Virus record (IMG/VR): IMGVR_UViG_3300019764_000012
Location: 1 to 34,563 of that record
Source of the DNA: a virus
Reading direction: 5' to 3' (one strand)
Length of the DNA stretch: 34,563 nucleotides
The position numbers and the translations under genes are program-made. The notes under the pieces are model-generated. The model saw nothing but the letters and a program-made list of their open reading frames with translations. It made no database searches and was not told where the DNA came from. Each line of letters opens with the position of its first letter. Position 1 is the first letter of the stretch. Positions 499 through 18,467 of this stretch are shown here, in pieces.

Positions 499-686
499 GT
501 GGTGACTCCAAACTGGACTCCTATAAGCCCCTGCCAGATTTCAGTAAAATCACGGATTGTTCTGTTAGTACGGATTTTTGGTATGTTGAACAGGAAAAGA
601 TGAAAGAACTATCAAAGAAGTCTAAAGAGGAACGTGATAGTCTTAAGATGAGCAGAGAAAAGTTTACTAAGGAGTTTAATTTATGA
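495..686 (+). CDS. Small charged hypothetical protein (63 aa)
   Basis: The product is unrecognised. It is a hydrophilic 63-aa protein whose C-terminal half is rich in Lys and Glu (EKMKELSKKSKEERDSLKM) and probably forms a helix or short coiled coil. The ATG overlaps the thyX stop codon as ATGA, and the gene's own stop overlaps the start of the reductase gene in the same way. GGAG just upstream can serve as ribosome-binding site. The two coupled overlaps between metabolic enzymes are the main reason to accept it as real. There is no signal peptide or membrane segment. Confidence 0.7.
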   Translation: MSGDSKLDSYKPLPDFSKITDCSVSTDFWYVEQEKMKELSKKSKEERDSLKMSREKFTKEFNL

Positions 687-1186
687 GAATTAACGTAATA
701 GCAGCAATAGGCAAGAACAACGAGATAGGACTGAATAACCAACTTCTCTGGAAGTCTAAGTCGGACTTGGAACATTTCAAGCAACTTACTTTAGGCAAAC
801 CAATTATTATGGGACGTAAGACATTTGAGTCACTGCCTGGTATTTTACCTGGACGGACTCATATTGTGATTACGCACCATACTAAGGATGCTCTAATAAA
901 GTCTTATATGGACCAGGTTCTTTGGGACTTCTCATTTGTGTCAGCTATAGACTACTGTAAGCAAGTTGGACACGATGAAGTATTCATCATTGGTGGAGCC
1001 GCAATCTATGAGCAAGCTCTACCTTTAGCTGATGAACTTCACATCTCACACATGGACTGGACTGGTGAAGCTGACACATTCTTCCCGGAAATCGGTCCTG
1101 AGTGGTCTAGTCGAGTACAAACAACAATTCAACGTGGTACTACAGGAGAGCCTGACTGGTACTATACCAAGTACACACGCAAGTAA
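683..1186 (+). CDS. Dihydrofolate reductase (DHFR)
   Basis: DHFR reduces dihydrofolate to tetrahydrofolate with NADPH. The 167-aa length is typical of bacterial DHFR. Landmarks in order are the N-terminal strand INVIAAIGKNNEIG, Trp23, the catalytic acidic residue Asp28 in SKSDLEHFK, the NADPH-binding segment PIIMGRKTFESLP, the GRTHIVIT strand and the C-terminal VFIIGGAAIYEQALPLADEL block. The start is supported by AAGGAG upstream and by ATGA overlap with the preceding ORF. It is unusual beside ThyX, because ThyX, unlike ThyA, does not produce dihydrofolate. The enzyme identity is secure; its purpose (dTMP supply, general folate pool or a virion role) is open. Confidence 0.96.
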   Translation: MRINVIAAIGKNNEIGLNNQLLWKSKSDLEHFKQLTLGKPIIMGRKTFESLPGILPGRTHIVITHHTKDALIKSYMDQVLWDFSFVSAIDYCKQVGHDEVFIIGGAAIYEQALPLADELHISHMDWTGEADTFFPEIGPEWSSRVQTTIQRGTTGEPDWYYTKYTRK

Positions 1187-1293
1187 CCAATTCGCACATG
1201 TGGGTTATGTTCTGTATCCCGGAACCACTCAGCTTACGGTGGCTGTAGTCGAACATGTGTATTAAATCCGATTACCAAATACAAGGAAACAAA

Positions 1294-2052
1294 TTGAATA
1301 TTTTTATAACACAAGCAGAACCAGGATCAAGAGCGTTCGGGATTGAGCTATTAGCAGCACACAAGAACGGTTTTGAGTATGGTCGGTATGAAGACACTAA
1401 CCAAGTTTTTGCAATTAATGAAGAAGATGATCTTATTTGCACTCGTCCTCTTTGCCCAGCAGAAACACTCCATGTTTTGGAGGACAATTACCCAGATGGA
1501 ATCCCAGATTCAGCTCTTAGTGACGAAGTTTTACTGTTTTTAGCAGCTGAAGGAACTCCAGTTGAACCTGAGCTTGTTGATCAGTGTGTTAACGCTTGGC
1601 AGTCTTATATCAACTTTAACACAGCTTCATCAGATCAGGAATCTGCCTTTTACGAACAGGCACACCTTGCTTGGGGGTTAGATTTCACACACATCATTAG
1701 TGCAGATGGCAGATACTACCAAATTGTTAATTCTGATGGTGATGTCCTTAATCTAACTGATGCTGAAATGGGGTCTCTGGGACTGCCATTACCCAAGCCG
1801 CCTATTACTGAAGCAGACGCACTTGCGGATTTAGCAGGAGAACCTAGACCTGACAATCCTTCAGCCAATGCTGTTGAACCCGAGGAAAAACGAACTGGAG
1901 GTACCTCAACTCCTCTCAGCTCTGACCAATTAGCAGCTAGAATCGTGATGCAGGCTAGACACATTATCCTGAACACACTTGAACAGTCTGAGCAAATCAC
2001 GCCACAGCAAACAGATACTTGTCTTAAGTTAGCAACTTTGGCGAGGCTGTAG
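1294..2052 (+). CDS. Hypothetical protein (252 aa), TTG start preferred
   Basis: The product is unrecognised. The frame opens at ATG 1255, but no ribosome-binding site precedes that codon. TTG 1294 has AAGGA about seven bases upstream and starts a protein beginning LNIFITQAEPG, so it is the better start. Residues 1-150 look like a compact globular domain; then comes a Pro/Glu-rich linker (LPKPPITEADALADLAGEPR and onward), and the last 45 residues form a likely helical tail (QLAARIVMQARHIILN). It has no membrane segment. It lies between DHFR and a MazG-like enzyme and is probably co-transcribed with them. Confidence 0.75.
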   Translation: MNIFITQAEPGSRAFGIELLAAHKNGFEYGRYEDTNQVFAINEEDDLICTRPLCPAETLHVLEDNYPDGIPDSALSDEVLLFLAAEGTPVEPELVDQCVNAWQSYINFNTASSDQESAFYEQAHLAWGLDFTHIISADGRYYQIVNSDGDVLNLTDAEMGSLGLPLPKPPITEADALADLAGEPRPDNPSANAVEPEEKRTGGTSTPLSSDQLAARIVMQARHIILNTLEQSEQITPQQTDTCLKLATLARL

Positions 2053-2054
2053 TC

Positions 2055-2546
2055 GTGTTACACAAGAAGCAACTTTTCAACCTAGTTGAGGATATATGTA
2101 AGCTGAACGATACATCTTGGAACAACCCAAAAGGTTCATACGATGCAAGCAAAGCAGCAGCTCTTGTTATTGAGGAAGCACTGGAGAAGCTACCATTAGC
2201 TGACAAGCTTGCTAAACAGCTTGGTTGCGACAACAACCCTAAGTCTTTGGCTAGGTGTATTGTTGGTTTAACTACTGGGGACAATATTGATGGTACTATG
2301 AACGAGTCTGTGCCACCAGTTGGTGCATTCGACTCTAGTCTGGACGCAATCTTCATCGAAGTAGGGAACATGCACATGCAGGGACTTACACCTTCACAGA
2401 TTGTTGATGGTCTGCAAGTAGTTTACACAGCCAACTCGATGAAGGGCTCTGCTAAGGATTCCAACGGGAAGATTACTAAGCCTGATCAGTGGGAGCAACT
2501 GTATGCACCTGAGCCGAAACTACAAGTTATTATGGATGGTAAGTAG
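2055..2546 (+). CDS. MazG/HisE-like nucleotide pyrophosphohydrolase
   Basis: This is probably an all-alpha NTP pyrophosphohydrolase that hydrolyses (d)NTPs to monophosphates; phages often carry these for nucleotide-pool control. Seen in the sequence are an EEALE helix (residues about 40-44), then AFDSSLDAIFIEVGNMHMQGL, which resembles the metal-binding D-x-x-x-D helix of the fold, and a C-terminal block NSMKGSAKDSNGKITKPDQW resembling the N-M-x-K...GK..K..gW ending of phage MazG proteins. The start is GTG, two bases after the preceding stop, with GCGAGG as a plausible ribosome-binding site. The fold call is fairly good; the substrate is unknown. Confidence 0.72.
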   Translation: MLHKKQLFNLVEDICKLNDTSWNNPKGSYDASKAAALVIEEALEKLPLADKLAKQLGCDNNPKSLARCIVGLTTGDNIDGTMNESVPPVGAFDSSLDAIFIEVGNMHMQGLTPSQIVDGLQVVYTANSMKGSAKDSNGKITKPDQWEQLYAPEPKLQVIMDGK

Positions 2547-2588
2547 GATTCGAATTTCACAATTTAACCAAACTTTAAGCTACTTTGC

Positions 2589-2617
2589 TTGACTTTTGGT
2601 TGGGAGTAGAGTATAAT
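2589..2617 (+). promoter_or_regulatory. Near-consensus sigma70 promoter
   Basis: TTGACT (2589-2594) and a perfect TATAAT (2612-2617) are separated by exactly 17 bp. The predicted start site is near G2624. It is the strongest bacterial-type promoter I found in the window. It faces the P-loop ATPase gene and would give a leader of about 150 nt. It suggests that host RNA polymerase transcribes this plus-strand block. Confidence 0.82.
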
Positions 2618-2623
2618 TACTTT

Positions 2624-2640
2624 GTAAAAGCAACTTTTAC
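2624..2640 (+). promoter_or_regulatory. 7-bp hairpin with 3-nt loop at the predicted start site
   Basis: GTAAAAG and CTTTTAC form a perfect 7-bp inverted repeat around the 3-nt loop CAA. The first base of the stem is the predicted +1 of the sigma70 promoter, so the transcript would start with a stem-loop, a known way to protect mRNA 5' ends. The geometry (5-7 bp stem, 3-nt loop) also matches the extruded hairpins that N4 vRNAP uses as early promoters, but the loop sequence does not match the N4 examples I recall. The hairpin is seen; both functions are inference. Confidence 0.55.
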
Positions 2641-2655
2641 GACGTAATTTATACC

Positions 2656-2731
2656 TAGTTACTAATAGAGAAGGTCTTTCGTCCAGATTCACCTTTTCTA
2701 TTAGGAACTATTCGTAGCAAGCAATCTGGAC
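2656..2731 (+). promoter_or_regulatory. Long 5'-UTR stem-loop with potential pseudoknot
   Basis: Bases 2656-2675 pair with 2691-2710: 18 Watson-Crick pairs, one G-U and one A/G mismatch, closing a 15-nt loop. Inside the loop, GTCCAGATT (2681-2689) is perfectly complementary to AATCTGGAC (2723-2731), 12 nt beyond the stem. This gives an H-type pseudoknot or a switch between two structures. No U-run follows, so it is not a normal intrinsic terminator. It lies in the leader between the sigma70 promoter and the ATPase start codon, where it could control translation, mRNA stability or read-through. Confidence 0.65.
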
Positions 2732-2776
2732 AATTTCTTCTACTCCTTACTAATTTTAGTCTACAAGGAACACAAT

Positions 2777-3361
2777 ATGCTAAAGCATACTATTACAACA
2801 TATAAGGAAATAAACATGATCGGTGGAGTATTTCGTCAAGGCGGCATCAACTGTATTTATGGAGCAAGTGGGATGGGTAAAACTATCAGCTCAATTAAGG
2901 CACTTAATCAGGATGGTATTATACCAATTCTTCTGGATTTCGATGACAACGACTCTGCCGAGCAGAACGAATGTCAGTTTAAACATGTAGAAGGCTGGGA
3001 CTTCATGAAGGCCTACAAGGATCCGGAAACAGCAACTACTATACCACGAGGTGAGGTTATTGTTATTGATACTTGGCACCTATTCAGTGACTTCTATAAT
3101 GAGGACCCAGAACTACTAGCCAATCTTGCTGATGGTAACACCATTATCATTATTGGCCACATTGTGGATATCGCAACCAAGCAGGATATTCCGGATATAC
3201 CATCTGAGTTTATCAATCACTGCCACGCTAAGTTATTCTTGTCTTTTGACAAAGGTAGTTCAGCGAAGGGCAAGGAACGTTTACCTGGACCAGTCCTCGA
3301 GGTGAAGAAGTTGCGTGGCTACAAAGGCCCTAAATTAATCCGTAATTGGATGAGAAGTTAG
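2777..3361 (+). CDS. P-loop ATPase, RecA/Sak4-like small NTPase
   Basis: This 194-aa protein binds and probably hydrolyses ATP. Walker A is GASGMGKT (about residues 30-37, after INCIY), Walker B is the hydrophobic strand EVIVIDTW, and a further strand NTIIIIGHIVD follows. The compact layout resembles phage RecA-like ATPases of the Sak4/AAA_24 kind that act in recombination or replication, but I cannot assign the subfamily. Two starts are possible: ATG 2777 with AAGGAA upstream, and ATG 2816 in the same frame, also preceded by AAGGAAA; the latter begins right before the core (MIGGVFRQGG). A strong promoter and a structured leader precede it. Confidence 0.8.
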   Translation: MLKHTITTYKEINMIGGVFRQGGINCIYGASGMGKTISSIKALNQDGIIPILLDFDDNDSAEQNECQFKHVEGWDFMKAYKDPETATTIPRGEVIVIDTWHLFSDFYNEDPELLANLADGNTIIIIGHIVDIATKQDIPDIPSEFINHCHAKLFLSFDKGSSAKGKERLPGPVLEVKKLRGYKGPKLIRNWMRS

Positions 3362-3363
3362 CT

Positions 3364-3537
3364 ATGGGAATGTTTTCATTGGCCTTAGTAGGTGATAAAC
3401 AGGACTTAATTGACAATATCAAGGCTAATCTTGATTTATTTAGTACTAGGGACTCGGTTAAGTATGAATACTTATTGGATATGGTCCAATATGATCTTGA
3501 CGCTTTAATTAAACTAACAAAACCGGAGTCAACATGA
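3364..3537 (+). CDS. Small hypothetical protein (57 aa)
   Basis: The product is unrecognised. It is a short, mostly helical protein (MGMFSLALVGDKQDLIDNIK, then a Leu- and Asp-rich C-terminus). The frame can be read from TTG 3346 inside the ATPase gene, but ATG 3364, two bases after the ATPase stop with GAGAAG upstream, is more likely. Its stop overlaps the next start as ATGA, consistent with translational coupling. Confidence 0.6.
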   Translation: MGMFSLALVGDKQDLIDNIKANLDLFSTRDSVKYEYLLDMVQYDLDALIKLTKPEST

Positions 3538-5141: not shown

Positions 5142-5209
5142 TGGAATGGCTTCTATTATTTATCTTTGCTTGTATCGTGTTCGAGCATCTCACCGGCAGG
5201 GCTACTTAG
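5141..5209 (+). CDS. Putative 22-aa membrane micro-protein
   Basis: ATG 5141 overlaps the stop of the 50-aa gene and has AGGAG at a good distance. It encodes MEWLLLFIFACIVFEHLTGR plus two residues, a single hydrophobic helix with a short polar tail. The stop codon lies inside the 3' end of the minus-strand gene below (8-bp tail-to-tail overlap). Its short length makes chance possible; the ribosome-binding site and coupling argue that it is real. Confidence 0.5.
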   Translation: MEWLLLFIFACIVFEHLTGRAT

Positions 5210-8200
5210 CCACAGCTGGTGTTATTATCATCTCTAGTATATTGAATGGCCTACCCCAACCACCTACTTTTCGTAGTATTGCGTCTATTGGCGAATAGTA
5301 CTGATCCCACGGAGTTTCAGCATCTAATCCACTTAACCCTTGAGCACCTTCTGTCAGGAACACAGTACCAGCTTTCTTACCTAGCATTTTCATCATTGCT
5401 GGGAATACTCTGAAGAAGTATTTCGTGAAGCTGAATATCAGCGTATCATTAGCATACTTTATTCCTCTATTATCCAAGTATCCGTAGTTTACTGTCAACC
5501 CATCAACATAGTTCAGCACGTTCTGTTCCACTTGTTTTGCAGTAGCATCTTTACCGCCCAATTTACCTGCGAATGTTTCATTTTTGCCTTCTTTATTGGC
5601 ATCATTGTACTCCGCCATCAGGTCTTGGTATATTATCATCTTTGTTATCACGTCGGCATATGTTGTTAACTTCATTGTCGAATCATACAGCGGCGAGTCT
5701 TTTCTCACGTACAACGTATCTATTACTTCTTTTATCCCAACTTTATCATTTTTTCTTTTTAGCTTGTCTAGGACAGCATCCAATTTACCTTCAATTATCC
5801 CTTTTTCGTTCATCCACTCAGCGTTCAGGTCTTCTAGTATCGCAGTGTATTGTCCATCTTCCATCAACGGATGTACCGGACTATTTTTCATTCTATTTTC
5901 TATGTTTTTTAATTCTTTTTCATCTATTGTTTCACCAGCTTCCTTTCGTATTGCCAGCTTACTCGATGTTCTCCTATCGTCTTGGTATCTGTTCATCTCT
6001 GACCACATGTCTGTGAACCTACCCAAGTACTTCAGTGGATCTTTGCTCTTTGTGTGTTGTAGTGCAATCACCATGTTCGACCCATTGTTTCCTAGTATCG
6101 TACCAGCTGTTTTTGTTACTACTGCTTGCTTCCATCCTTGCGTTATCTCTTGTACTATCAGCTCAGCTTTTCTAGCAACTAATTGTCGTCTTTTGCTATT
6201 TTTTATCATTGGTAAGTTCATTATGCTCATATCTTTGTATCCGAAGAAGTCCACTAGCATACTTTCTTCCACCATTAACTTACCGCCCATTGTTCGCTCT
6301 ATTTGCGATTTCAGGTAGTATGGTATACTATCCCAGTACTCTTTTTCTTTGCCTTCTGAGGTTTCACTAATCTCCACGAACGTATAATCTTTACTACTAG
6401 CATATTTTGTATGGAACCGTTTGAAGTATCTTATTGCCTCTTTATTACTTATCATTGCCTCTTGTTTGTGTGTTAAATCTGATACTGTACCGCCAACGGT
6501 TGGTAGTATGTCATCTTCTACCCCTAAGTACTTATATTTCACGTCATGTGGTATTCTTACTCTGTAGTCATATATCTCATTCTTACCTGATCTCTCTGGT
6601 ATTAGTGAATCTTTACCACCTGTTGTTTCTTTGGCCAACATTGCTATCTCAACTTCAGCTTCTTCTTCTGTTAGTTCATTTATCTCTATTAGTAGTCTTC
6701 GTAAGCTGTCCCCTTCATTCTTCAACTGTACCTTGCTCATTAGTCCTTCTGTGTACCCAACTTCCATTGATTCACCTACTACTAGGTACATGTCTTTACC
6801 AATTGCTTTACTAAGTGCTTCTTGTTTACCTAAGTTCTTCATCTTTACTCGTTCTAAGTCTCTCAGTTCTTTAGCTTCTACTATGTAGTACCTTTTGTTA
6901 CTTCCATCCTTCCTATTACCATATGTTTCCTGCTTAGCGCCCTTAACTTGGTACATAGCATCACCACTGTATGCATCTTCTAGTATCTTTTCTTCATTTA
7001 CTCGCATCAATTCCATTGCGTGGTCGAATCCTTTTGCCACATCTACTATCTTACCTTCTGGTGTCACCAACTCTTTTGTAAGTGCTTGTATTACCAAGTC
7101 TTTATTCTCTTTTGCACTGTATCTTAGTGCTACTAGCGATGCCATCCTGTCAATCTCTGCTACTACTTTTGGATTTTGTGTCTTCAGTAGTGCGTAACTG
7201 ATCTGCGATGCATTCACATACCCATTCGCTGTGTCTGTGCTGTTATCTACTAGTAGTTTACCCAATTGTTCTACTGCGTCTACTACCTCTTTACTGTAGT
7301 TGTGTTTGAATATTTTCAACTCAGCCGTTATTCTTCTTTCATCTTGCAAATACTTTAGTATCTCTTTACTGTTACCTAGTACTTTAGCATCTGTGTCTAT
7401 TAGCACTCTCTTAGCTGCTCGTCTCTCACCTTTCGACAGTCTGCCTAGTTCGTAGTCTTTCTCTAGTACCTCAATTGTGAAGTGCTTGATTGGTGCTACT
7501 GCATTCTCTACGAATGCTTTAGCATGTCTGAACATTTGGTAGAACCTTGATACGTCTTTATTTGACATGTCTCTTGTCACACTTGCGAATATGTTGTTCT
7601 TCAGTATGTAGCTCTTTGCTTTTGCTATTCCTCTTATCTCCCACACTTTATCTATTGCTTTTCTCAGTCCACTTTTGTTGTCTGTTTGTCTTATGTAGTC
7701 CGCGTACGATCTTTGTGCTTTCTTCTCTAGTGTGGTGAGCTCTGCTACTTTGCTATCAATTTTGTCTAGTCTCTGTAGTAGCCTCTCCGAGATACTCATT
7801 TCTTCCACTTTTCTGTTACTATGCCCCAATTCCATTGCTTTATTTAGCATGTCTATTGTCAGCTCTCTAGCATCTTTTCCCTTGAACTTAGTGTTTCTGT
7901 ACACTTGGTTGATTATCTTTGCTATATTATTCCACAGCTTCTTCCATCTGCTTTTTGTACCTGGCTCTATCTTCATTGTGCCCATTATCTCGTACGACGC
8001 TAGCTCATTTATTGCACCAAGGGCCTCTGCTAGTTTCTCATTTGTTGTTGCTGCTGCGAGGAACTCACTTGCTTGATCTTCTGCTATTGGGTTACGGAAC
8101 ACGTACTCCCATCTTTCTTTAGCGAACTCTTTATCTTCTGCTGTTACATCACTATCTGGCAGGAATACTTCCCAGCTAATCTCTTTTGCTATTGCATCTC

Positions 8201-8936
8201 TCAGTCTCAGTATCTGCGATGTCAGTACCTTATCTTTTACCAGTACGTTGTGGATCAGTAGATGCTGCAATTCGTGTGCTAGTATGTCTGTATTGCTGTT
8301 GAACCTCGTGTTACCTTGTATCAGGTCTACCTTTCCACTCTCTACTGTTGCTTCACCCTTCGCACCTTTATTGTCCAAGTCCTTGAACAGCTGCACGTCA
8401 ATTTTCACGTCTTTACCAGCATTCATTAGTACGTCTTTGTACATATTCAGCACTCGCTTCAACTGTTCACTCACCGGCTTACCATCAGCTTGTGCTGCTA
8501 CTGTTGCCAGTACGTCCAAGTCATTTACTATCGTACCACCCAACTGTCCCATGAACTCAGTGTTTCTCTTACCTTTTTCACTGCCAAGTGTTGCCATCGT
8601 TATTCCGTCTGTTAGCATCCCTGTGTATAGCTTCAGGTCATGCTCACCGTTTATTCTTACTTTGTTGTTCGACAGCATCTCTGTAGTCTCAACCTTCACG
8701 TCAGTCTCCATGTTTGTGTCCATGTCCTGTAGTGTCAGTGTCTTACCTACTAACTCTGAGCCTCTATCGATGTACGGACTTACTCTTTTGTCTGGGTCTG
8801 CGTACATCCCTTGCCGTGTAGCTCTGTTTACCCCAGCCTGTACCCTTCTCTCGTACTCAACTGCTTGTTTAGCTGTTTCTATTACTTCTCTCGCTTCATT
8901 TTCTTCGTTTATTAGTTTGTCTAGTGTGCAACTCAT
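5202..8936 (-). CDS. Giant internal protein with HELQH zincin motif; candidate vRNAP C-terminal domain
   Basis: This 1244-aa protein is probably packaged and injected with the vRNAP. Residues 221-225 are HELQH within DILAHELQHLLIHNVL, the zinc-binding HExxH motif of zincin metallopeptidases. The C-terminus contains GIKYANDTLIFSFTKYFFRV, resembling from memory the end of N4-like giant polymerase proteins. In N4 a C-terminal domain of about 1400 aa follows the polymerase domain in one chain; here this gene plus the 213-aa gene supply a similar amount separately. ATG 8936 is preferred over TTG 8945: AAGGA lies nine bases upstream and the start overlaps the previous stop as ATGA. A free-standing ejection protein is the alternative. 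Confidence 0.75.
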   Translation of the reverse strand: MSCTLDKLINEENEAREVIETAKQAVEYERRVQAGVNRATRQGMYADPDKRVSPYIDRGSELVGKTLTLQDMDTNMETDVKVETTEMLSNNKVRINGEHDLKLYTGMLTDGITMATLGSEKGKRNTEFMGQLGGTIVNDLDVLATVAAQADGKPVSEQLKRVLNMYKDVLMNAGKDVKIDVQLFKDLDNKGAKGEATVESGKVDLIQGNTRFNSNTDILAHELQHLLIHNVLVKDKVLTSQILRLRDAIAKEISWEVFLPDSDVTAEDKEFAKERWEYVFRNPIAEDQASEFLAAATTNEKLAEALGAINELASYEIMGTMKIEPGTKSRWKKLWNNIAKIINQVYRNTKFKGKDARELTIDMLNKAMELGHSNRKVEEMSISERLLQRLDKIDSKVAELTTLEKKAQRSYADYIRQTDNKSGLRKAIDKVWEIRGIAKAKSYILKNNIFASVTRDMSNKDVSRFYQMFRHAKAFVENAVAPIKHFTIEVLEKDYELGRLSKGERRAAKRVLIDTDAKVLGNSKEILKYLQDERRITAELKIFKHNYSKEVVDAVEQLGKLLVDNSTDTANGYVNASQISYALLKTQNPKVVAEIDRMASLVALRYSAKENKDLVIQALTKELVTPEGKIVDVAKGFDHAMELMRVNEEKILEDAYSGDAMYQVKGAKQETYGNRKDGSNKRYYIVEAKELRDLERVKMKNLGKQEALSKAIGKDMYLVVGESMEVGYTEGLMSKVQLKNEGDSLRRLLIEINELTEEEAEVEIAMLAKETTGGKDSLIPERSGKNEIYDYRVRIPHDVKYKYLGVEDDILPTVGGTVSDLTHKQEAMISNKEAIRYFKRFHTKYASSKDYTFVEISETSEGKEKEYWDSIPYYLKSQIERTMGGKLMVEESMLVDFFGYKDMSIMNLPMIKNSKRRQLVARKAELIVQEITQGWKQAVVTKTAGTILGNNGSNMVIALQHTKSKDPLKYLGRFTDMWSEMNRYQDDRRTSSKLAIRKEAGETIDEKELKNIENRMKNSPVHPLMEDGQYTAILEDLNAEWMNEKGIIEGKLDAVLDKLKRKNDKVGIKEVIDTLYVRKDSPLYDSTMKLTTYADVITKMIIYQDLMAEYNDANKEGKNETFAGKLGGKDATAKQVEQNVLNYVDGLTVNYGYLDNRGIKYANDTLIFSFTKYFFRVFPAMMKMLGKKAGTVFLTEGAQGLSGLDAETPWDQYYSPIDAILRKVGGWGRPFNILEMIITPAVAK

Positions 8937-9574
8937 CTCATACAATCCTTTAGTTCTTCGTGTCGATTATTCTTTTTACCTGTATCAGTTATGTTACCGT
9001 CTTTTTGCTTAGTTTCTGCCATCTCAGCTTCTGCCTCAACTCCATCTTCCAACAGCATCTTGTGTCTCATTAGGGTGTCTTCTAGCAACTTTGTAGCATC
9101 TTTACCTAACTTACTATCACTAGGCACGTCGTTATCAATCACTATGTAGCCTTTTGCTGCCATTAACTCTTCCTTTAACTTCGGGTCATTTGCTACTACT
9201 TTAGTTACTAATTCGGCCATCAGTTGTTTTTGTTCTACTACTGGTCTTGTTACTTTCTTTCCATCTACCTTCTTCGATTTCTGGAAGTTGAACGCCTCAA
9301 CCATGCTCTTATACCCTACTGTCTTGTTTGTTTTTGGGTATCTGCTGTTCCACACATTCTGTAGGAATTCTACTTGTTGGTTTAGTGTGCTGTTTGGGTG
9401 CATTGGGTTACTTGCCTCCACCACTGTCACTTCTCCATCAGCCTTCAACTTCGTTATCTGCAGCCCTTGTAGTGCTGTGTTTAGCTCTACTTGTCGGCCT
9501 TGTGTCTGGTTAGCACCTACTTTCTTATATCTCTCTGTAAGTGCTATCATTTCGTCTATTATACATTTGCTCAT
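8933..9574 (-). CDS. 213-aa protein between the vRNAP and zincin genes
   Basis: The product is unrecognised alone. It is soluble; residues about 55-110 (for example NPMHPNSTLNQQVEFLQNVW) look folded, and the C-terminal 45 residues are low-complexity and charged. GAGGAG lies seven bases before its ATG, which overlaps the vRNAP stop as TAATG; its own stop overlaps the zincin gene start. Both junctions are bona fide coupled gene boundaries rather than frameshifts. By position it corresponds to the beginning of the N4 vRNAP C-terminal domain. A small virion or assembly factor is also possible. Confidence 0.7.
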   Translation of the reverse strand: MSKCIIDEMIALTERYKKVGANQTQGRQVELNTALQGLQITKLKADGEVTVVEASNPMHPNSTLNQQVEFLQNVWNSRYPKTNKTVGYKSMVEAFNFQKSKKVDGKKVTRPVVEQKQLMAELVTKVVANDPKLKEELMAAKGYIVIDNDVPSDSKLGKDATKLLEDTLMRHKMLLEDGVEAEAEMAETKQKDGNITDTGKKNNRHEELKDCMR

Positions 9575-12500
9575 TAGCAGTTCTCCTCTAACCTTTGTGT
9601 CTGCATTTGGTCGAACTTAGTTTGCAGTACTTTTCTTAGTTTTGGGTCTTCTATGTTCCCAAGTGTTTCGTTTATTGATTGTAGTATACCATTTCTTCTA
9701 TTTGAGTTACTTTGTTTCTTAGCTTTACTTCGCAAATTTTGTGCGAGTTGTCCTAGTATGTCCCCTAACTCACCCATTTGCTCATCTCTTGTCGCCTCAT
9801 CGAACACAGCGTTCACTGTCTCGTCACCTACCGATTTGTGTGCAGGTGCTGCATCTGTTGCGTAGTATTGGTTCGATTTTACTTTCTTACCTCTCATTGC
9901 TACTCTGTTATCATGTATATTACCAATCTCTGTTAACGGATCACCACTATTGAGTGCCTCAGCAACTTGGTTCATGCTTTTCATGTCTGGGTATACTCTC
10001 TTCATTGCACTTTCTGTCTCGTCGAAGTTAATCAACTCTAGCGCTTGTTTGATGTTTAGTTTACCCTCTTTCTTTAGCTTCAGTAACTTCTGTACCGCGT
10101 TACCAAGTATACTGTGTCTCATGTTGATGTCCAGGAACGCTTTGTTCATCTCTTGTGCTTGTAGTATCCCTTTCTCTCCATTTACTCCTAGCATTAGCGC
10201 ATCGTACACGTTCAGCACGTCTTGTGTATTACCCTCAATCATTACTGTCCCATCCACGTCATGGATCTGTACTACTCCAACTGCCCCTACGTTTGTTACT
10301 ACGTCCTTTACCTGATTGCTTAGTGTTACTGCTGTACTTCCACTCCCACTTTGGAACCCTGCATTTCTTACTTGTACTGACAGCTTACTTGTGTCTGCAT
10401 CTGTCTTTTCTAGCTTAATTAACTCTTGTTGACCACCACTAGCATTGTTTGAACTGTAGTATGTACCTTCTTTCTGCATCTCAGCGTACACTTTGTCTAG
10501 TTGCTTTTGTGTTAACTGTGATATTCTCGTAGCACCCAATTCAGCTAGTTTCTTGTTCAGCTCTGTTCGGAACACCATGTAGTTCAGCTGTTCAATCAGC
10601 TTTACCGACTCTCTGAACTTCACTACCTCACCGAACTCTGTTGTGAACGCATTTGCTAGTTGTTCACCAACTTGCTCATCTATTGCGTTTGTTAGTGTGT
10701 TTACTGTCTCTTCTTCCATATATCGTACTGTTGTGTCACCTTTAGCAACTCTATCTGCTAGTTGTCTTTGCAGCTTTGTTATTGGTTTTTTACTTGCTTC
10801 AGCTTCAGCCTTATCCTCTGCCGCTTTTGCTAGTTTCTTAGTGTCTTTGTTGTACTTCAGCATCTTGTCTGCACTAGCAATCATCTCATCTGCTTTTGCT
10901 ATCTCTTTTGCCAACTCTGCTTCACTCTGTACTCTACCTGTCTCTGGGTTGTATATCTTATTCTCGTACTTGATCTCCAACTCAGCAGCTGTCTTACCTG
11001 TTAACTTCTGTAGTGCATCTGTTGCACCTTTACTCATTCCTCCATCTATATAACTATTTCCCACTATCAGCGATCTTGCAGCAGCTTGTCTGATGTTTGC
11101 CATCCCAGCACCGTAGATGAATACCATTACTGGCCCTTTCATGAAGTTTCTCCACTTACCACCAAGCACTTCTTCCATTGCTGCTAGTATCTCTGCTCCG
11201 CCTTCTTGCTTCAATAGTCCCTCAACTACCATTGTCTCTGGTGTTTGGTATATATCTTTACCGCCTTGCTCTTTGTACTGTCCGTGATTGTCGTACTGAT
11301 CGTAGTAGTTATCCACGTACATCCCTGTTTTCGATAGGTGTAGTTTTGTTGCTTCTGTGTACCCAATTTGCATTAGTGTTGCACTCATCCCGTTAGTAAT
11401 CCCATCTATCTCTAGTGCCAAGTTAGTTGTTGCTTTGCCCTGTTTTGCTAAGTCGTGTAGCAATTGTACCAATTGTAGTGTGTGTAACTTCTCATCTATG
11501 CTGTGAGCTCCACCCCATTTGTTTACTGCTTCTAGCGTACCTTCCTTTACCATCTCTTCGAACTCTTTGCTACTGTACGTTATCTTTGCGTTATCGTCTA
11601 TCGTGAAGTATTTTTCACTCATCTTAGCTATTGATGTTTTGTCCTCTAGTTTGTCGATGTCCATGTCAAGTGCCTGTGCTGCAGCAGCTCTTACGAATGC
11701 CATTGTCTCTTTGTCCACCTTACCAGCTTCTATTGTTGTTGTCATGTCTCCAGCACCTACCAGGAATCTACTGATCTTACTGTTTTGTGGGTTTAGCATC
11801 ATCGAGTCCATCATTGTTCTACCACTTTTTGTGTAGTCGTACGGTATGTAGAACTCATTGGCACCTACCATCTCGTATACCTCAATCATTCTCTCTATCT
11901 GCAACTCATCTGCCTTGTACTTAGCGTGTACCGACTCTGCGTTCATTGTTGCTGTATTTGCTAGTATTGTGTCCAGGTCTCCTAGTATGTCCATTTTCAG
12001 TTTATCTACGTCTATTGTTTCATCTTCTTTTGCGTATTTACCTAGTACTTTGTGTGCTTGTTCACTGAATGTCCACGGTGTTGTACCTAATCTCTCTTGG
12101 TATGCAACTGCTGGGTCACTCATCTCTGTGCTTGTCTTTCTTGCTCTCTTGCCTTTATTTGTGTGTATTGGCTCTGTATCTATTGTTGGTGTTGTGCTAC
12201 TTTGTGCAAACTCTAGTGTTGACCCAACCCTAGCGTATTCTGCTGGTACATCTTCCATCATCAGTACACTTATCACCCCACCTGGTCTAACATCAGCACT
12301 TGGCTTCTCGAAGTCTATCATCCCATGTTGTACATACGCATTTTGTCTATATACCCCATTCTTGTGCGACGAGTGTGTTCTTAGCATGTTACTCAGTATC
12401 ATTGCTCCTAGTGAGTGCTCTATTGCATTCTTATCTTCAATTATTAGCGAGTCGTCTAGTTTCATCCCCATCTCAGTAAGTAGTGTCTTACCTGCTGATT

Positions 12501-15500
12501 CGTACAGGCTTGCTGCTGGCACCAATTCCCCTCTTTTTATCTTATTCTCTAGCATTTTCTTCGAACTCTCTGGTACTATCCCTGTTGCTGGGAACAAGTG
12601 ACCGAACGAACCATCTATCAAGTCGTGCATTTGGTCTCTGTTGTATGTCATCATTGCTTTCGCTTTGCTGAACATTATCAGTGATGTTGTGTCCATTGCA
12701 CCTTTTACCAACTCTGCATTTGCTGGATCTGACAGTATGTCGTTCATTCCACTTTGTATTAGTATGTTCTTGTCATTCAACTCTAGCTTTGCAAGGTTTG
12801 TTTGCTCTAGTACTGGTATGTTTGCTCTGTCTGTACTGAATGTGTTCAGTGTTTTCAATGCGTCCTTTACTCTTTCTTCACCGTTTTTACCTGCATTCTG
12901 GATGATTCTTGGCATGATTTTCATCAACCAAGCTTCTTTGTCCTTCATGTTCAGCACTGTATGCGTTGTACTAACTCCACCTGATTTAGCCTTAGTTATC
13001 CCCTCTACTACAGGAATCCCAAGTGCTTCTATTTTAACCATTTCCTGTGCTTTTTTCTTTATCTTGATGTCGGCTTTTACTGATCTTATCTTCTTGTCGG
13101 CCTCTTTCATTTCTTCCTTAGCCAGTCTGATATTCTCTTTTTGCTGTACTATTATCTTCTTCAGCGAACCAATCACTTCTCTTGCTGTCTTGAACAACTT
13201 AAATACTCTCTGTACTAGTGTTTGTGGAGCTAGGTCTTTTTTGTTCATTGCTACCTTTAGCATCTTACTAACCATTGTTAATCGGTTCTTGTGTTGGTCT
13301 AGTCTACCCTGTATCGCTGCTTTGTCGCTCTCTAGTTTACCAAGTTCTGTAGTGTACTCATCTATGTCGTTTTGTACCTTCTCGATTATCCCATTCACTA
13401 ACTCTGCGTCTAGTTTCTTACCAGCTTTTACTTGCACTACTTGCTCACCAACTTTCTTCTCTGCCTCAGCTACTGACTTCTCAGTGTTTTCTGTTGCCTC
13501 AACCACGGTTTCCATTGTAGTTTCTTTTGGCTTAGCAACCTCTTCATCTTGCTTTGCTCTAATCTTCTCTGCTACCTCAACCTTTGTTTCTTGTGGTATT
13601 GTACTGTCAGCATCTACTTGTGCCATTGCCCGATCCAAGTCACCATCATTTTGCTCTATTACCGAGTTTACGTCAACTGTTTCATCTGTGAACAGGTCTG
13701 GCGCACTCTCATCTGCTTGTGGGATATTTGTATCCTCATACTTAGCAAGCTCTTCTACTATTGCATCTAGTTGTGCTGTCTCAGCAGTTTCTTTGCTTAG
13801 TAGCTCTATGTACATTGATTTGTACTGCTTTAGGTCCAATTTGTTTTTGATGTTAGCAATTGCGTCCATCTCACCATTCAGTGCTGTTTGTGCCTTTGTC
13901 ATTACCTCTAGTTGTGCTGGTGTTAAGTTACCTGACTCTATCGCAGCTGTTGCTATCTCTGATAGTCTTCTATTCTCAACTTCTTGGCTCATTATGTAGC
14001 TGCTGATCTCTTGTGGTGTACGCAATCTCTTTACTTTTACTCGTTGCTTTTGTCCTTCAACCTTCTTCGACTGTGTTGTCACACCCTCCAGTTTACCTAC
14101 TCTCGAGTGCATGAATGTAGCTAATTCTCTAACTACTCCACTAGCAGCATCTTCATCCTTTGTTACTGGGTTTGTTATTGTTGCTGTAACATCTGCTCTG
14201 TGTTCTCGCAAACTCTTACCAACAGAGTTTTTCTTCACGAAGCCCATGAACTCAATCTCATCTGCTACTTGTTGAGCTGTCTTTTTTGGTGGTTTGCCGT
14301 CTTCTGTTACTTCACTACCTAGTTGTTTCTCGTACAATACCAATCCATCTTCTACTTTATTCGCATATTGTGTTATTGGTTCACTACCAAGTTTTCTCAT
14401 CTCTTGTAGTATTGCTCTTACCTTCACCAACCCCTCTTCGTTCAGTGGCGTGTCCTTAGTAATCTTAGCCTTTTGCTCAGTTGTCATCGACTCTGTTAGT
14501 GTTTCAATCTCTTCTACTACTCTGTTGCTGTATATCTTCTCTATCTGTGCTTGTGTTACTTCCCCAACTTCTTGGTTCTTTATCATCTCACTTAGCATTG
14601 CATCAACTTCAGCGTCTGTTGCTACTCTTACTTCATCCTCACCTTTCGATAGCATGTGGTTAACCGCATCTCTTACCAATCCAGCGTGGAGCACATCCAT
14701 TGCTACTTTGTCTGTTTTGTCTACTTTGTATACCTCAGCTACTTTGTCAGTAGCATCTTTCATTGCGTCTAGTGGTGTACCAGCGTATCCAGCTGCTTTT
14801 TGTATTTCTGGACTAGCCCATATCTCAGTAGCGTATGCTGCAATGTCTTGTGCATGTGCTTTAGCTGCTTCTGGTTCTACTTCGTATCCTTCACTACCAA
14901 CTGACTCCCATCTGTTTTGTCTACCAGTTCTTGTTGCTGATGGATCAGTATCTGTTGGGTCTGCTTGCCCATCTGTCAAGCTTACTAGCTGCTCCTTAGC
15001 TATTTTACCAGTTGTGCTAAGTACTTGAGGGACTGCACCAACTGTTTTCATAGCAGCTACTGAACCTGGAGTCATCAACGCACTTACTACCATATCTTCT
15101 TGTGTTTTTTGTGATGTTAGTATGTCACCAACTGACTCAGCTCCGCCTACTTTGTACTGTTTACTAACTGCTTCTGCACCAGCTTGCAGTACCTCGGTGG
15201 GTATCTCTTTGAGTATTGTATCTGCGGCGACACCAAACCCTTTAGCAGCTAACGTTTTAGCCAGTCCCATCTTAGCCCCGTCATCTGCTTTTGATATTAA
15301 GTTTAGTACTTGTTTACTACCAATCCCATTAGTAGTGATTATCTTCTTATCAATGAACCCGTCCAGGTTGTTTTTGATCATGTTTATTGTCATTGATCCC
15401 ATAACTCTACTAGCTGACATATCTTCGTTGTGTTCAGCTTTGTACGCATCCATGTCCGAACTTGTGTCACTAGCACTAACTCCGATGAATCCTGCTTGCC

Positions 15501-16635
15501 CCTTAACGGTATGTGCTATTTTATCTACTAACTTAGCATTTCTCATTATCTCTTTGGTCTTAGCAGCTTTTTCAATCGCACTTGCTTTGCCTGTTTTCGA
15601 TGCCGCATCCAATACTTTCATCTCTAGTCTAATTGCTTTACCAAGTCCACTTACACCTTGCAGTACTTTACCTGGCATAAATAGTGTTGCTACGAACGCA
15701 AGTGAACTAGCAGCAGCTTCTGGTGCGGCTTTTAATCCTGCCCATCCACCATCTTTTATCAGTTCTATCAGATCTCCGTCTTTTTGGTATTGTTTGTATG
15801 CTGTCTTAATCTCTTCTGCGGCCTTCGCTGTGAATCTATCATCGTATCCAGTTAAGTCATTAGCCCACTGCGTAATCTCTTCATCTGATGCAATGTCACC
15901 ACCGATGAGCCCGCCAGTTGCTGCTCCAAGCAGTTCTGAACCTGCATCTAGTACACCATACCCAGCTCCAGCTATCGTACTTCCAGCTCCAGCTAATGCG
16001 TTGCTAGCTCTGCCTATTACTGAGTTATCCATGCCGATGGACTTATTTAACATCTCTGTATTAGTGCCACGTTTGCTAGCAACTGCTTCCATCTCTGCTC
16101 TGTACGCAGGATCAGCCCATAGTCCTTTACCTTGTTCTTTTGCTTGTAGCATTAGTTCTTGCGCTTCTGGTGTTTGGTTGTCGAACGCAGGTATAGCGTA
16201 GCCATCAGCTACCATCTTGTTTTGGTAATCTGTATTTTCGATTATTGGTCTACCATAGTGCCCTGTTCCAGTACTTTTTGGAGTGTCTTGGTATGTTGGT
16301 GTTGTTTGAGTGTCATTGAAGCTTGTTTCTTGGAATCCACTGTCAATCCCATTGAAGTCTAGTGTACTGAACTCAGCCTCTAGTTTAGCCGCCTCTCCAG
16401 CTGTTGCTTTGCTTACGTATTGTCCTAGCTTACTTTCTCTAGCTTTGTTTAGTCTATCAGCTTTTAGTGCGGTCTTTGGCATCTCTGGAGCATCTATTCC
16501 AGCTATTCTGTAGCCTTGTCCGTTTTGGTATACTGTGTCCGCATCGTATATGTATTGGTCTGTATTGTTTTGTGTGTTATCTTGCGTGTTAGTTTCACCA
16601 AACGCTTGTTGTAGTAGTTCGTCTTGAGTTGGCAT
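9574..16635 (-). CDS. Virion RNA polymerase (N4-type) with N-terminal SNase-like domain
   Basis: This 2353-aa protein is a virion-borne single-subunit RNA polymerase expected to be injected and to transcribe early genes. All signature motifs are present: TxxGR-type D1600-YTKSGR1606; motif A EIDGITNG with D1744; motif B R1829-NFMK1833 followed by Y1841-G; motif C IHD with D2126. K to Y is 8 residues and B to C is 293, close to N4 mini-vRNAP values I recall and far longer than in T7. Residues about 27-180 form a staphylococcal-nuclease-like domain: D31/D33/T34, R43, GIDAPE with D48 and E51, YGR with R129, and GLW. The region 1030-1170 is coiled coil. It ends about 230 residues after motif C, so the N4 C-terminal domain is absent from this chain. 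Confidence 0.92.
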   Translation of the reverse strand: MPTQDELLQQAFGETNTQDNTQNNTDQYIYDADTVYQNGQGYRIAGIDAPEMPKTALKADRLNKARESKLGQYVSKATAGEAAKLEAEFSTLDFNGIDSGFQETSFNDTQTTPTYQDTPKSTGTGHYGRPIIENTDYQNKMVADGYAIPAFDNQTPEAQELMLQAKEQGKGLWADPAYRAEMEAVASKRGTNTEMLNKSIGMDNSVIGRASNALAGAGSTIAGAGYGVLDAGSELLGAATGGLIGGDIASDEEITQWANDLTGYDDRFTAKAAEEIKTAYKQYQKDGDLIELIKDGGWAGLKAAPEAAASSLAFVATLFMPGKVLQGVSGLGKAIRLEMKVLDAASKTGKASAIEKAAKTKEIMRNAKLVDKIAHTVKGQAGFIGVSASDTSSDMDAYKAEHNEDMSASRVMGSMTINMIKNNLDGFIDKKIITTNGIGSKQVLNLISKADDGAKMGLAKTLAAKGFGVAADTILKEIPTEVLQAGAEAVSKQYKVGGAESVGDILTSQKTQEDMVVSALMTPGSVAAMKTVGAVPQVLSTTGKIAKEQLVSLTDGQADPTDTDPSATRTGRQNRWESVGSEGYEVEPEAAKAHAQDIAAYATEIWASPEIQKAAGYAGTPLDAMKDATDKVAEVYKVDKTDKVAMDVLHAGLVRDAVNHMLSKGEDEVRVATDAEVDAMLSEMIKNQEVGEVTQAQIEKIYSNRVVEEIETLTESMTTEQKAKITKDTPLNEEGLVKVRAILQEMRKLGSEPITQYANKVEDGLVLYEKQLGSEVTEDGKPPKKTAQQVADEIEFMGFVKKNSVGKSLREHRADVTATITNPVTKDEDAASGVVRELATFMHSRVGKLEGVTTQSKKVEGQKQRVKVKRLRTPQEISSYIMSQEVENRRLSEIATAAIESGNLTPAQLEVMTKAQTALNGEMDAIANIKNKLDLKQYKSMYIELLSKETAETAQLDAIVEELAKYEDTNIPQADESAPDLFTDETVDVNSVIEQNDGDLDRAMAQVDADSTIPQETKVEVAEKIRAKQDEEVAKPKETTMETVVEATENTEKSVAEAEKKVGEQVVQVKAGKKLDAELVNGIIEKVQNDIDEYTTELGKLESDKAAIQGRLDQHKNRLTMVSKMLKVAMNKKDLAPQTLVQRVFKLFKTAREVIGSLKKIIVQQKENIRLAKEEMKEADKKIRSVKADIKIKKKAQEMVKIEALGIPVVEGITKAKSGGVSTTHTVLNMKDKEAWLMKIMPRIIQNAGKNGEERVKDALKTLNTFSTDRANIPVLEQTNLAKLELNDKNILIQSGMNDILSDPANAELVKGAMDTTSLIMFSKAKAMMTYNRDQMHDLIDGSFGHLFPATGIVPESSKKMLENKIKRGELVPAASLYESAGKTLLTEMGMKLDDSLIIEDKNAIEHSLGAMILSNMLRTHSSHKNGVYRQNAYVQHGMIDFEKPSADVRPGGVISVLMMEDVPAEYARVGSTLEFAQSSTTPTIDTEPIHTNKGKRARKTSTEMSDPAVAYQERLGTTPWTFSEQAHKVLGKYAKEDETIDVDKLKMDILGDLDTILANTATMNAESVHAKYKADELQIERMIEVYEMVGANEFYIPYDYTKSGRTMMDSMMLNPQNSKISRFLVGAGDMTTTIEAGKVDKETMAFVRAAAAQALDMDIDKLEDKTSIAKMSEKYFTIDDNAKITYSSKEFEEMVKEGTLEAVNKWGGAHSIDEKLHTLQLVQLLHDLAKQGKATTNLALEIDGITNGMSATLMQIGYTEATKLHLSKTGMYVDNYYDQYDNHGQYKEQGGKDIYQTPETMVVEGLLKQEGGAEILAAMEEVLGGKWRNFMKGPVMVFIYGAGMANIRQAAARSLIVGNSYIDGGMSKGATDALQKLTGKTAAELEIKYENKIYNPETGRVQSEAELAKEIAKADEMIASADKMLKYNKDTKKLAKAAEDKAEAEASKKPITKLQRQLADRVAKGDTTVRYMEEETVNTLTNAIDEQVGEQLANAFTTEFGEVVKFRESVKLIEQLNYMVFRTELNKKLAELGATRISQLTQKQLDKVYAEMQKEGTYYSSNNASGGQQELIKLEKTDADTSKLSVQVRNAGFQSGSGSTAVTLSNQVKDVVTNVGAVGVVQIHDVDGTVMIEGNTQDVLNVYDALMLGVNGEKGILQAQEMNKAFLDINMRHSILGNAVQKLLKLKKEGKLNIKQALELINFDETESAMKRVYPDMKSMNQVAEALNSGDPLTEIGNIHDNRVAMRGKKVKSNQYYATDAAPAHKSVGDETVNAVFDEATRDEQMGELGDILGQLAQNLRSKAKKQSNSNRRNGILQSINETLGNIEDPKLRKVLQTKFDQMQTQRLEENC

Positions 16636-16690: not shown

Positions 16691-17893
16691 TTATTTAAGT
16701 CCGAGAGCTCTCTTGAACTTTTCTAGGCTAAACTCTCTGTCTTCATCAGTTGCTACTGTTATTGCATTAGCGATTTCTTTGTCACTCTTTTGCTCATCTT
16801 TTGCTAGTTTAACTGCCGATTGAGCATCTTCTCTCTCATCATTGAAGTTGAATATCCCAGCATCGGTTCGAACTCCCTGGATTGCTTTTGTTAGTAGCTT
16901 ACTACCTGAATCGTCTGGTTTTGGCTTCTTCTTAGCAGCTTGAGTAGCATATCTCTCTAAAGCTTTACCACTCATTCCTTTTGGTACAGGTTTGCCAAGA
17001 TCTTGTAGAATCTGCTTTCCAACTGAATCAGCAGCAGCTTCTTCTTTTTGTGCTGTTAGTACTCTTAATTGTTGATCGAATGTAGCCTCTTTGTATTTTT
17101 TCTCTAAAGCAGCTTTAGCTTTTAGCTTAGCTTCTCCTCCTAGTGTTGGGTGATTCATTACTTGATTAATCCCATACTCTAATTGTTCTTTTTCTGTCAT
17201 GTCTCTAGTTATTGGTGTCTGCTTAGTCACAGTCTTAACTAGTTCTGGTACAGATTGTTCAGTTACCGTACCTCTAATACCAGCCAATCCAGATTCTAGT
17301 AGTGCTTTGGTATGTGCTTGTTCCGGTGTATATTTCTGCTCAGTTGGTTGTGGCTTCCCTAGCAATCTACCAATTACTGAATCTGCACCAATGAAGTCAT
17401 TGTTTTTATTTCTTTGGTACTGTGTGCCTTGGATATTTTCAGCACCTTCAACTTTCTCCCTACTATACTTTGCAAACAACTCACTGTATTTATTAGAACC
17501 TTCTTCCTGTTGAGCCAATCTTCTTGTGTTCATTTGCTGTTGCTTCAGTAGGTTTGCTTCAGCCTGCTTAACTTCAGCTTCGTTACCTTGTGTTACTATG
17601 TCAGTCCTAAAGCCACCAACTGTCCTATTTTGTTGTGCTTGTGCTAGTGCCTCTCCAAGCAACTTATCTTGAGTAGCCTTGTCAGCTTCTCTTTGTGCAC
17701 TTGCTCTCTGGAATCCCAATTGCTCTTCAGCTCTTTTGTTTGCCAGTGCCTGTTGAGTGCTGTCTAAGTACCCCTTAGCTCCAGCTCCTAGTCCTGCACC
17801 AAGTTGCTGTCCAGCACTTGCTTGTAGTTTAGCGGCATTTAGCATTAGTGCTGTATCTGCTTTAGGAGTTTCTGTTGTATAGAATAGTGCCAT
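16691..17893 (-). CDS. Internal virion protein, helical (400 aa), N4 gp51-like by position
   Basis: This is probably an internal or ejected head protein. It is Ala/Gln/Lys/Glu-rich and largely helical: residues 15-50 hold an AAKLQASAGQQLGAGLGAGA stretch, then long coiled-coil-like segments (for example KRAEEQLGFQRASAQREADK). It has no catalytic motif or membrane helix. It lies directly before the vRNAP gene, where N4 encodes its gp51-gp52 internal proteins. The start has AGGGGTG upstream and lies one base after the preceding stop. The role is inferred from position and composition. Confidence 0.7.
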   Translation of the reverse strand: MALFYTTETPKADTALMLNAAKLQASAGQQLGAGLGAGAKGYLDSTQQALANKRAEEQLGFQRASAQREADKATQDKLLGEALAQAQQNRTVGGFRTDIVTQGNEAEVKQAEANLLKQQQMNTRRLAQQEEGSNKYSELFAKYSREKVEGAENIQGTQYQRNKNNDFIGADSVIGRLLGKPQPTEQKYTPEQAHTKALLESGLAGIRGTVTEQSVPELVKTVTKQTPITRDMTEKEQLEYGINQVMNHPTLGGEAKLKAKAALEKKYKEATFDQQLRVLTAQKEEAAADSVGKQILQDLGKPVPKGMSGKALERYATQAAKKKPKPDDSGSKLLTKAIQGVRTDAGIFNFNDEREDAQSAVKLAKDEQKSDKEIANAITVATDEDREFSLEKFKRALGLK

Positions 17894-17894
17894 T

Positions 17895-18467
17895 TTACAC
17901 CCCTAATCCAGACTCTCTGAACCCTCCTGCCATGGCTAATGATGCTTGGTTTCGTCTTTTATTGTCTGCTGCAATACGAGCTTGATCAGCTGCAAGTTGT
18001 TTTGCATATGTGTCTGCTTGCATTTCAGCAGCTTTTTCTGTTGCGCTAGCTCCGATCAACCCTTGTGCTATAGGTGCAGCCAATGCTACAGTATTCTTAC
18101 CTGCATCTGATCCTAAGAAATCACCTACCCCTTTATACCAAGAACCAGTGTTGCTTTGGTTTGTCATTTGGTTTGCACCTCTTGCTAGTCCTCCGTAGGC
18201 ACCATTTGAAGTAGCCTCTTGTGTGGCCGGGAATGAGTAATCATTATTTGTACCAGTCATACTATTTAATAGTGCACTTTGCTCTAATGACGCAGGTCTC
18301 GTAGGCATAGTATTTATAGCGTTGCCCATAAAGTCATGTGTTGTACTAGGACCAAAGCCATCTGTACTATTATAGTCAAGTCCTCCATCTCTTCCCAATC
18401 CAAGCCCGTACGCTAATACTCCTGCACCAACTCCTGCTTTTAACCAATCTTTTGAATTAAAACTCAT
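17895..18467 (-). CDS. Gly/Ala-rich internal virion protein (190 aa), N4 gp52-like by position
   Basis: This is a probable structural or ejection protein. The N-terminus (WLKAGVGAGVLAYGLGLGR) and residues about 125-143 (NTVALAAPIAQGLIGASA) are Gly/Ala-rich, weakly hydrophobic segments like those in podoviral ejection proteins that cross membranes. The middle is Asn/Ser/Thr-rich and the C-terminal 45 residues are helical (EMQADTYAKQLAADQARIAA). AAAAGGAT precedes the ATG. It is followed almost directly by the 400-aa gene. The function is inferred. Confidence 0.68.
   Translation of the reverse strand: MSFNSKDWLKAGVGAGVLAYGLGLGRDGGLDYNSTDGFGPSTTHDFMGNAINTMPTRPASLEQSALLNSMTGTNNDYSFPATQEATSNGAYGGLARGANQMTNQSNTGSWYKGVGDFLGSDAGKNTVALAAPIAQGLIGASATEKAAEMQADTYAKQLAADQARIAADNKRRNQASLAMAGGFRESGLGV

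Follow-up and report, generated by a model that had tools for sequence, protein, structure and literature searches.

Virion RNA polymerases (vRNAPs) of the N4 type travel in the virion, are injected and act on hairpin promoters. In coliphage N4, the vRNAP gp50 is a single chain in which the polymerase domain ends near residue 2103 and a flexible linker (residues 2102-2123) joins it to a C-terminal domain (CTD, residues 2124-3500) consisting of an HExxH-containing subdomain C1 (residues 2124-2375) and a helical subdomain C2 (PMC12633501). It is an open question in phage biology how such a protein, of about 380 kDa, gets into the virion, passes the tail through a channel of about 35 Å (PMC12633501) and is switched on inside the cell. 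The vRNAPs are already known to be free of cysteines (PMC2784036, PMC10747016), and a passage of PMC2784036 cites Kazmierczak et al. 2002 for the suggestion that this absence helps the vRNAP to enter the cell. The split vRNAPs of Alteromonas phage AD45-P1 and Shigella phage pSb-1 were noted in an earlier study, which explained them by read-through or an error in gene calling and fused the pieces before analysing them (PMC10654107). Here, we analysed a stretch of 34,563 bases of a viral record (IMG/VR IMGVR_UViG_3300019764_000012, hereafter the window), with the gene layout read from open reading frames (ORFs) and their translations. The position of N4 gp50 is occupied in the window by three genes, whose products carry cysteines only at the ends that face one another. 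Two traits of N4-type vRNAPs are thus absent from the window, namely the single giant chain of about 3000-5000 amino acids (aa) and the lack of cysteines.

Three genes in place of N4 gp50

The three ORFs lie on the minus strand and encode chains of 2353, 213 and 1244 aa, with a total of 3810 aa that is close to the size of N4 gp50, as the sequence-only reading of this DNA had noted. Chain 1 (9574..16635) comprises the N-terminal region and the single-subunit RNA polymerase domain. Its residues 1375-2275 (9811..12513, minus strand) match positions 1087-1961 of the virion RNA polymerase profile PHROG 2206 (E 3.8e-44), to which N4 vRNAP itself matches at positions 5-3405. Residues R1606, D1744, K1833 and Y1841, which the sequence-only reading had assigned to the T7-like motifs TxxGR, A and B, are invariant among relatives. 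That reading placed the motif C aspartate at D2126; the aspartate is more likely D2128, because D2128 belongs to an invariant HxxDG while the position of D2126 is a tyrosine in relatives. Chain 1 ends about 225 residues past D2128. The AlphaFold2 (AF2) model of residues 1375-2353 is weak (mean predicted local distance difference test [pLDDT] score of 46), and its top Foldseek match is N4 vRNAP (9pnr, E 1.7e-4), followed by T7 RNA polymerase. The N-terminal sequence of chain 1 (window 16635-16490, YDADTVYQNGQGYRIAGIDAPE) looks to the eye like the beginning of a staphylococcal-nuclease-like domain, with no match in Pfam.

Chain 3 (5202..8936, minus strand) matches positions 2281-3359 of PHROG 2206 (E 1.1e-63), and a profile of relatives aligns to N4 residues 2420-3386 (E 3e-47). 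A hidden Markov model (HMM) of the CTD covers residues 7-1244 of chain 3. The zincin motif HELQH is located at residues 221-225 (8262..8276, minus strand), and the corresponding HELVH of N4 is at residue 2228, which places it 105 residues inside C1 as delimited in the structure paper (PMC12633501). The position of HELQH and the coverage of the CTD HMM indicate that the third gene encodes a complete CTD. Judged by these profile matches, the window system is an N4-type vRNAP with its CTD on a gene of its own.

Chain 2 (8933..9574, minus strand) matched neither the vRNAP profile PHROG 2206 nor any Pfam family, PDB sequence or other profile searched, and comparison with the CTD N-terminus of AD45-type relatives revealed no similarity. 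The sequence-only reading had assigned both downstream genes to the N4 CTD, which holds for the 1244-aa product and fails for the 213-aa product: chain 2 has no profile similarity to the CTD, and the CTD is complete without it. A NADAR-like identity, proposed by eye, found no support in Pfam, in a PDB sequence search or in BLAST against the NADAR region of another split locus (L031, below). The AF2 model of chain 2, made from an alignment of two sequences, has a pLDDT of 38. From its sequence, chain 2 looks like an extra chain set between polymerase and CTD, without a counterpart in N4.

The first junction is a TAATG stop/start overlap (9576-9572) preceded by GAGGAG (9583..9588, minus strand), the ribosome-binding site for chain 2, and the second is an ATGA overlap (8936-8933), both as previously described from the sequence. 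The downstream frames differ at both junctions, so neither of them is a single in-frame stop codon. The same three genes (2278, 216 and 1239 aa) are present on L002, a 107.7-kb contig from IMG/VR with protein identity of 82-90% to the window. Its second junction is unlike that of the window in DNA, with other Cys codons and a shifted stop, and the cysteines are kept. Comparison of the window with L002 gave dN/dS values of 0.18, 0.17 and 0.07 for chains 1, 2 and 3, all indicating purifying selection. The shared gene arrangement and the purifying selection on all three genes establish that the split is real. A split vRNAP, which the sequence-only reading took to be new, has a precedent, given that AD45-P1 had been noted as split earlier (PMC10654107).

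Cysteines at the chain junctions of split vRNAPs

The three chains of the window contain four cysteines, every one at a junction end, a pattern that the sequence-only reading did not mention. In chain 1, the sole cysteine is the final residue, C2353 (codon 9577..9579), which is invariant in a 10-row alignment. Chain 2 has C4 (9563..9565) and C211 (8942..8944), one at each end, and chain 3 has C3 (8928..8930), encoded by TGC in the window and TGT in L002 (all codons on the minus strand). The cysteine pattern of all three L002 chains is identical to that of the window, including the two cysteines of chain 2.

To extend this observation, split systems were found with polymerase alignments chosen regardless of cysteine, and every locus was read. 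The resulting 19 non-redundant systems comprise 24 junctions and 75,752 aa with 49 cysteines, of which 24 are located at C-terminal junction ends (0-4 residues from the end), 24 at N-terminal junction ends (positions 3-6), one in the interior of a chain and none at the outer ends. All 24 junctions have exactly one cysteine on each side, and their genes are collinear, with spacings of -11 to +46 nt. The rule applies at both of the domain borders where splits occur, and to systems of two, three and four chains. First chains have one C-terminal cysteine, middle chains two and last chains one N-terminal cysteine, which is the layout that pairing across junctions predicts. Chain starts were taken as the first of each ORF, except for L029 (ATG 24 bases inward), L066 (ATG 9 bases inward) and the window CTD, where the ATG was used and not the TTG 9 bases upstream (TTG 8945, from which the mechanical ORF list gives 1247 aa); the start codon of L043 is TTG. 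The last chains of L030 and L031, which are cut at the locus ends, end without cysteine once completed.

At uniform density, about 0.16 terminal-residue cysteines would be expected versus the 48 found (Poisson log10 P of about -100, a figure that treats residues as independent while the sequences are related). Of 222 further ORFs in these loci, 5 have a cysteine in residues 2-6 and 12 have one in the last five residues. N4 and the other single-chain vRNAPs that were checked first have none, and 33 single-chain vRNAPs (about 120,000 aa) contain one cysteine in total. The single-chain vRNAP ORFs of L040, L045, L049 and L047 (4332 to 4994 aa, also without cysteine) are well over the length range of 2842-3820 aa published for reference genomes (PMC10654107).

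The terminal cysteine of a known chain predicted a partner chain, and the predictions came true for L034, L031 and phage R22Y. The 2508-aa polymerase-CTD chain of L034 begins with MTPC, and a 1194-aa chain ending in CK was then found upstream. The third chain of L031 ends in CE, and a fourth chain beginning with MSNC was found after it. In Alteromonas phage R22Y, the 2083-aa vRNAP begins with MHKPNC and is preceded by a 1008-aa chain ending in CDGKD; the arrangement in phage V19 is the same. A scan of IMG/VR with R22Y returned no relatives.

The two chains of L043 map to positions 21-866 and 897-3398 of PHROG 2206, which indicates a cut at the linker between the N-terminal domain (NTD) and the polymerase. 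Splits at this border are found in L034, L043, R22Y and V19, and all obey the cysteine rule. In a tree of 43 CTDs, made by a quick method and with some long branches, the NTD/polymerase splits fall in three separate places and the polymerase/CTD splits in one or two clades; on this tree, splits appear to have arisen at least three times, and probably four or more.

Extra chains between polymerase and CTD are present in the window and L002, in L030 and in L031, and each added junction has its own cysteine pair. These chains consist of 213 aa in the window, 1883 aa in L030 and 1293 and 987 aa in L031, and those of L030 and L031 are cysteine-capped at both ends. The second of the four L031 chains (1293 aa, L031:13165-17046) contains DprA-like, DUF7831, NADAR and AlkB-like 2OG-Fe(II) oxygenase domains. 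With these effector-type domains, middle chains look like cargo, and the L031 chain looks like an injected effector chain.

A proposed disulfide link and its rivals

Split phages provide a natural experiment, since each cut carries one cysteine per side and the chains have none elsewhere but for one residue. A cysteine at every cut points to a covalent, redox-sensitive link from end to end. According to unpublished data that PMC4496689 cites, N4 requires the CTD for encapsidation and the NTD for injection, and separate chains would therefore need a link. We consider it fairly probable that the three chains of the window vRNAP are joined by interchain disulfides between the junction cysteines and that these are reduced in the host. 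In this mechanism, each chain would be bonded through the cysteine at its C-terminal tip to the N-terminal cysteine of the following chain, and the separately translated chains would thereby become one thread, otherwise cysteine-free. The stitched thread would be packaged and then leave through the narrow tail in one piece, while its cysteine-free interior would prevent mispairing. The order of the chains might be set by co-translation from adjacent genes. In the reducing cytoplasm of the host, the disulfides would open, which would detach the polymerase from the CTD and let the extra chain go free. As the N4 CTD lowers polymerase activity (PMC12633501), reduction may also activate the polymerase. 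A broader form of the proposal is a disulfide-stitched ejectosome, in which cysteine-capped chains stand end to end, cargo chains are inserted as modules and the reducing cytoplasm is the release signal; we regard the chances for and against this form as evenly balanced.

Several points weigh against such a link. The interchain disulfide itself is something that we infer from the placement of the cysteines, as are the pairing order, the time of bond formation and the activation by reduction. Virions assemble in a reducing cytoplasm, and the bonds would therefore need shielding or would have to arise late, either inside the particle or following lysis. The cysteines alone do not set the pairing order in systems of three or four chains, and the two cysteines of a junction could bind a metal instead. 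Two cysteines also lie away from chain ends: the sole interior cysteine of the census, at residue 451 of L031 chain 3, and the lone cysteine of the single-chain vRNAPs, at residue 3377 of 3646 in Acinetobacter phage Ab2712 (L082:1487-12427), whose record is marked UNVERIFIED.

The main rival to the disulfide is a metal clamp, in which zinc or an iron-sulfur centre bound by the junction cysteines, within one polymerase or between virion copies, would hold the chains during assembly. A clamp fits the same cysteine pattern and needs no disulfide formation in a reducing cell, and as N4 virions hold about four copies (PMC12633501), the cysteines of two copies could form a four-cysteine site. We nevertheless think it rather unlikely, for each junction offers only two cysteines, no constant His, Cys or Asp lies nearby among the tails and heads examined, and the tails differ in length, with 0 to 4 residues. 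Somewhat more doubtful is the idea that the cysteines are unpaired with each other and aid assembly or contact a common partner, such as a portal or core protein, in a redox-sensitive or thiol-bonded manner. The location of all cysteines at flexible chain ends would suit it; a general tag, however, should also mark outer ends and single chains, whereas the outer ends have none in 19 systems and the only cysteine in 33 single chains is interior. An intein relic or split intein was rejected, as the chains end 0-4 residues after the cysteine and start 2-5 residues before it, leaving no room, and native chemical ligation was rejected as the cysteine is never the first residue.

The remaining explanations concern the split itself. 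Plain gene fission with reinitiation, in which terminal cysteines are by-products of the stop/start translation signals, draws on the overlaps at several junctions (TAATG, ATGA) and on TGC/TGT codons near ribosome-binding sites. It is very improbable in view of the gaps of varied length, the use of both TGC and TGT, the position of the N-terminal cysteine past the start codon and the rarity of terminal cysteines in other genes of the same loci. Hardly credible as a general account is that the pieces are sequencing or assembly frameshifts of an ordinary single-chain gene. That is the case for pSb-1, which aligns seamlessly to N4 in changed frames and has no cysteine, and AD45-P1 has been annotated as a potential frameshift. 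However, the split is common to independent contigs and isolates, several junctions have non-coding gaps of varied length, the sequence at the chain ends is new and includes one conserved cysteine, and the window genes are under purifying selection. We accordingly rejected a frameshift for the window, as the sequence-only reading had done, and accepted it for pSb-1 (NC_023589, L006), whose annotated gp101-103 are a normal single-chain vRNAP gene that, compared with N4, shows three apparent frameshifts. The error explanation of PMC10654107 is thus right for pSb-1 and wrong for AD45.

If the disulfide link is correct, phages would have a means of attaching cargo proteins to the thread that they inject, and the arrangement would offer a natural blueprint for the delivery of several proteins on a single strand that comes apart in the cytoplasm. 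The cultured marine Alteromonas phages make the disulfide idea directly testable. Among the open-licence papers searched, no mention of junction cysteines in split vRNAPs was found, and the junction cysteine pattern is the novel part of this work.

Neighbouring genes and known systems

Upstream of chain 1, the window encodes proteins of 400 aa (16691..17893) and 190 aa (17895..18467) on the minus strand, which occupy the N4 ejection protein slot (gp51/gp52) by synteny with N4 gp50-gp52 and have no PHROG match. Cysteine is absent from the ejection-slot proteins of N4, of the window and of about ten relatives; the next gene product, N4 gp53, contains four. The window also has N4-type genes for a portal (PHROG 1216, E 1.5e-153) and a major head protein (PHROG 1357, E 2e-73) and tape-measure-like genes, and an N4-type portal is present in 8 of 10 split contigs. 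In the CTDs of the AD45-like clade (L004:39010-39030, L010, L018, L024 and L064), the first His of HExxH is lost (EExxH), and the motif is intact in the window and in the remaining split lineages that were checked. The vRNAP contigs L064, L065 and L066 come from assemblies that bear the labels Sulfolobales archaeon, Gracilibacteria and Falkowbacteria, and are probably misbinned or co-sorted phage DNA.

The phiKZ-like jumbo phages likewise inject a virion RNA polymerase made of several gene products, but these are kin of the cellular beta/beta' subunits, with a fold unrelated to the T7-like single-subunit polymerase. Comparison with N4 gp50 (3500 aa, Schitoviridae; PDB 9pnr) revealed shared polymerase motifs, a CTD with HExxH, the same domain order, ejection-protein neighbours and a cysteine-free body. 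N4 differs in having one chain without cysteine, while the window has three chains, junction-end cysteines and the extra 213-aa chain. Alteromonas phages AD45-P1 to P4 (unclassified Caudoviricetes; AD45-P1, NC_021532) share the polymerase/CTD split with one cysteine per junction end. The vRNAP of AD45-P1 consists of two ORFs of 2495 and 1409 aa, with single cysteines at positions 2493 and 4, respectively. These phages differ from the window in having two chains and no middle chain, in being deposited as a potential frameshift and in carrying EEVVH in place of HExxH. Alteromonas phages R22Y (PP212876) and PT11-V19 (OP751378) also have a two-chain vRNAP with one cysteine per junction end, cut instead at the NTD/polymerase border; the R22Y paper names only the 2083-aa chain as vRNAP (PMC11705849). 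Iyer et al. 2017 (PMC5512222), on polyvalent proteins, discuss N4-like vRNAPs that carry a fusion to zincin-like metallopeptidase domains, a likeness to which the effector-type domains of the L031 middle chain add, but there the domains form one multidomain chain, whereas here they are carried on separate, cysteine-capped chains.
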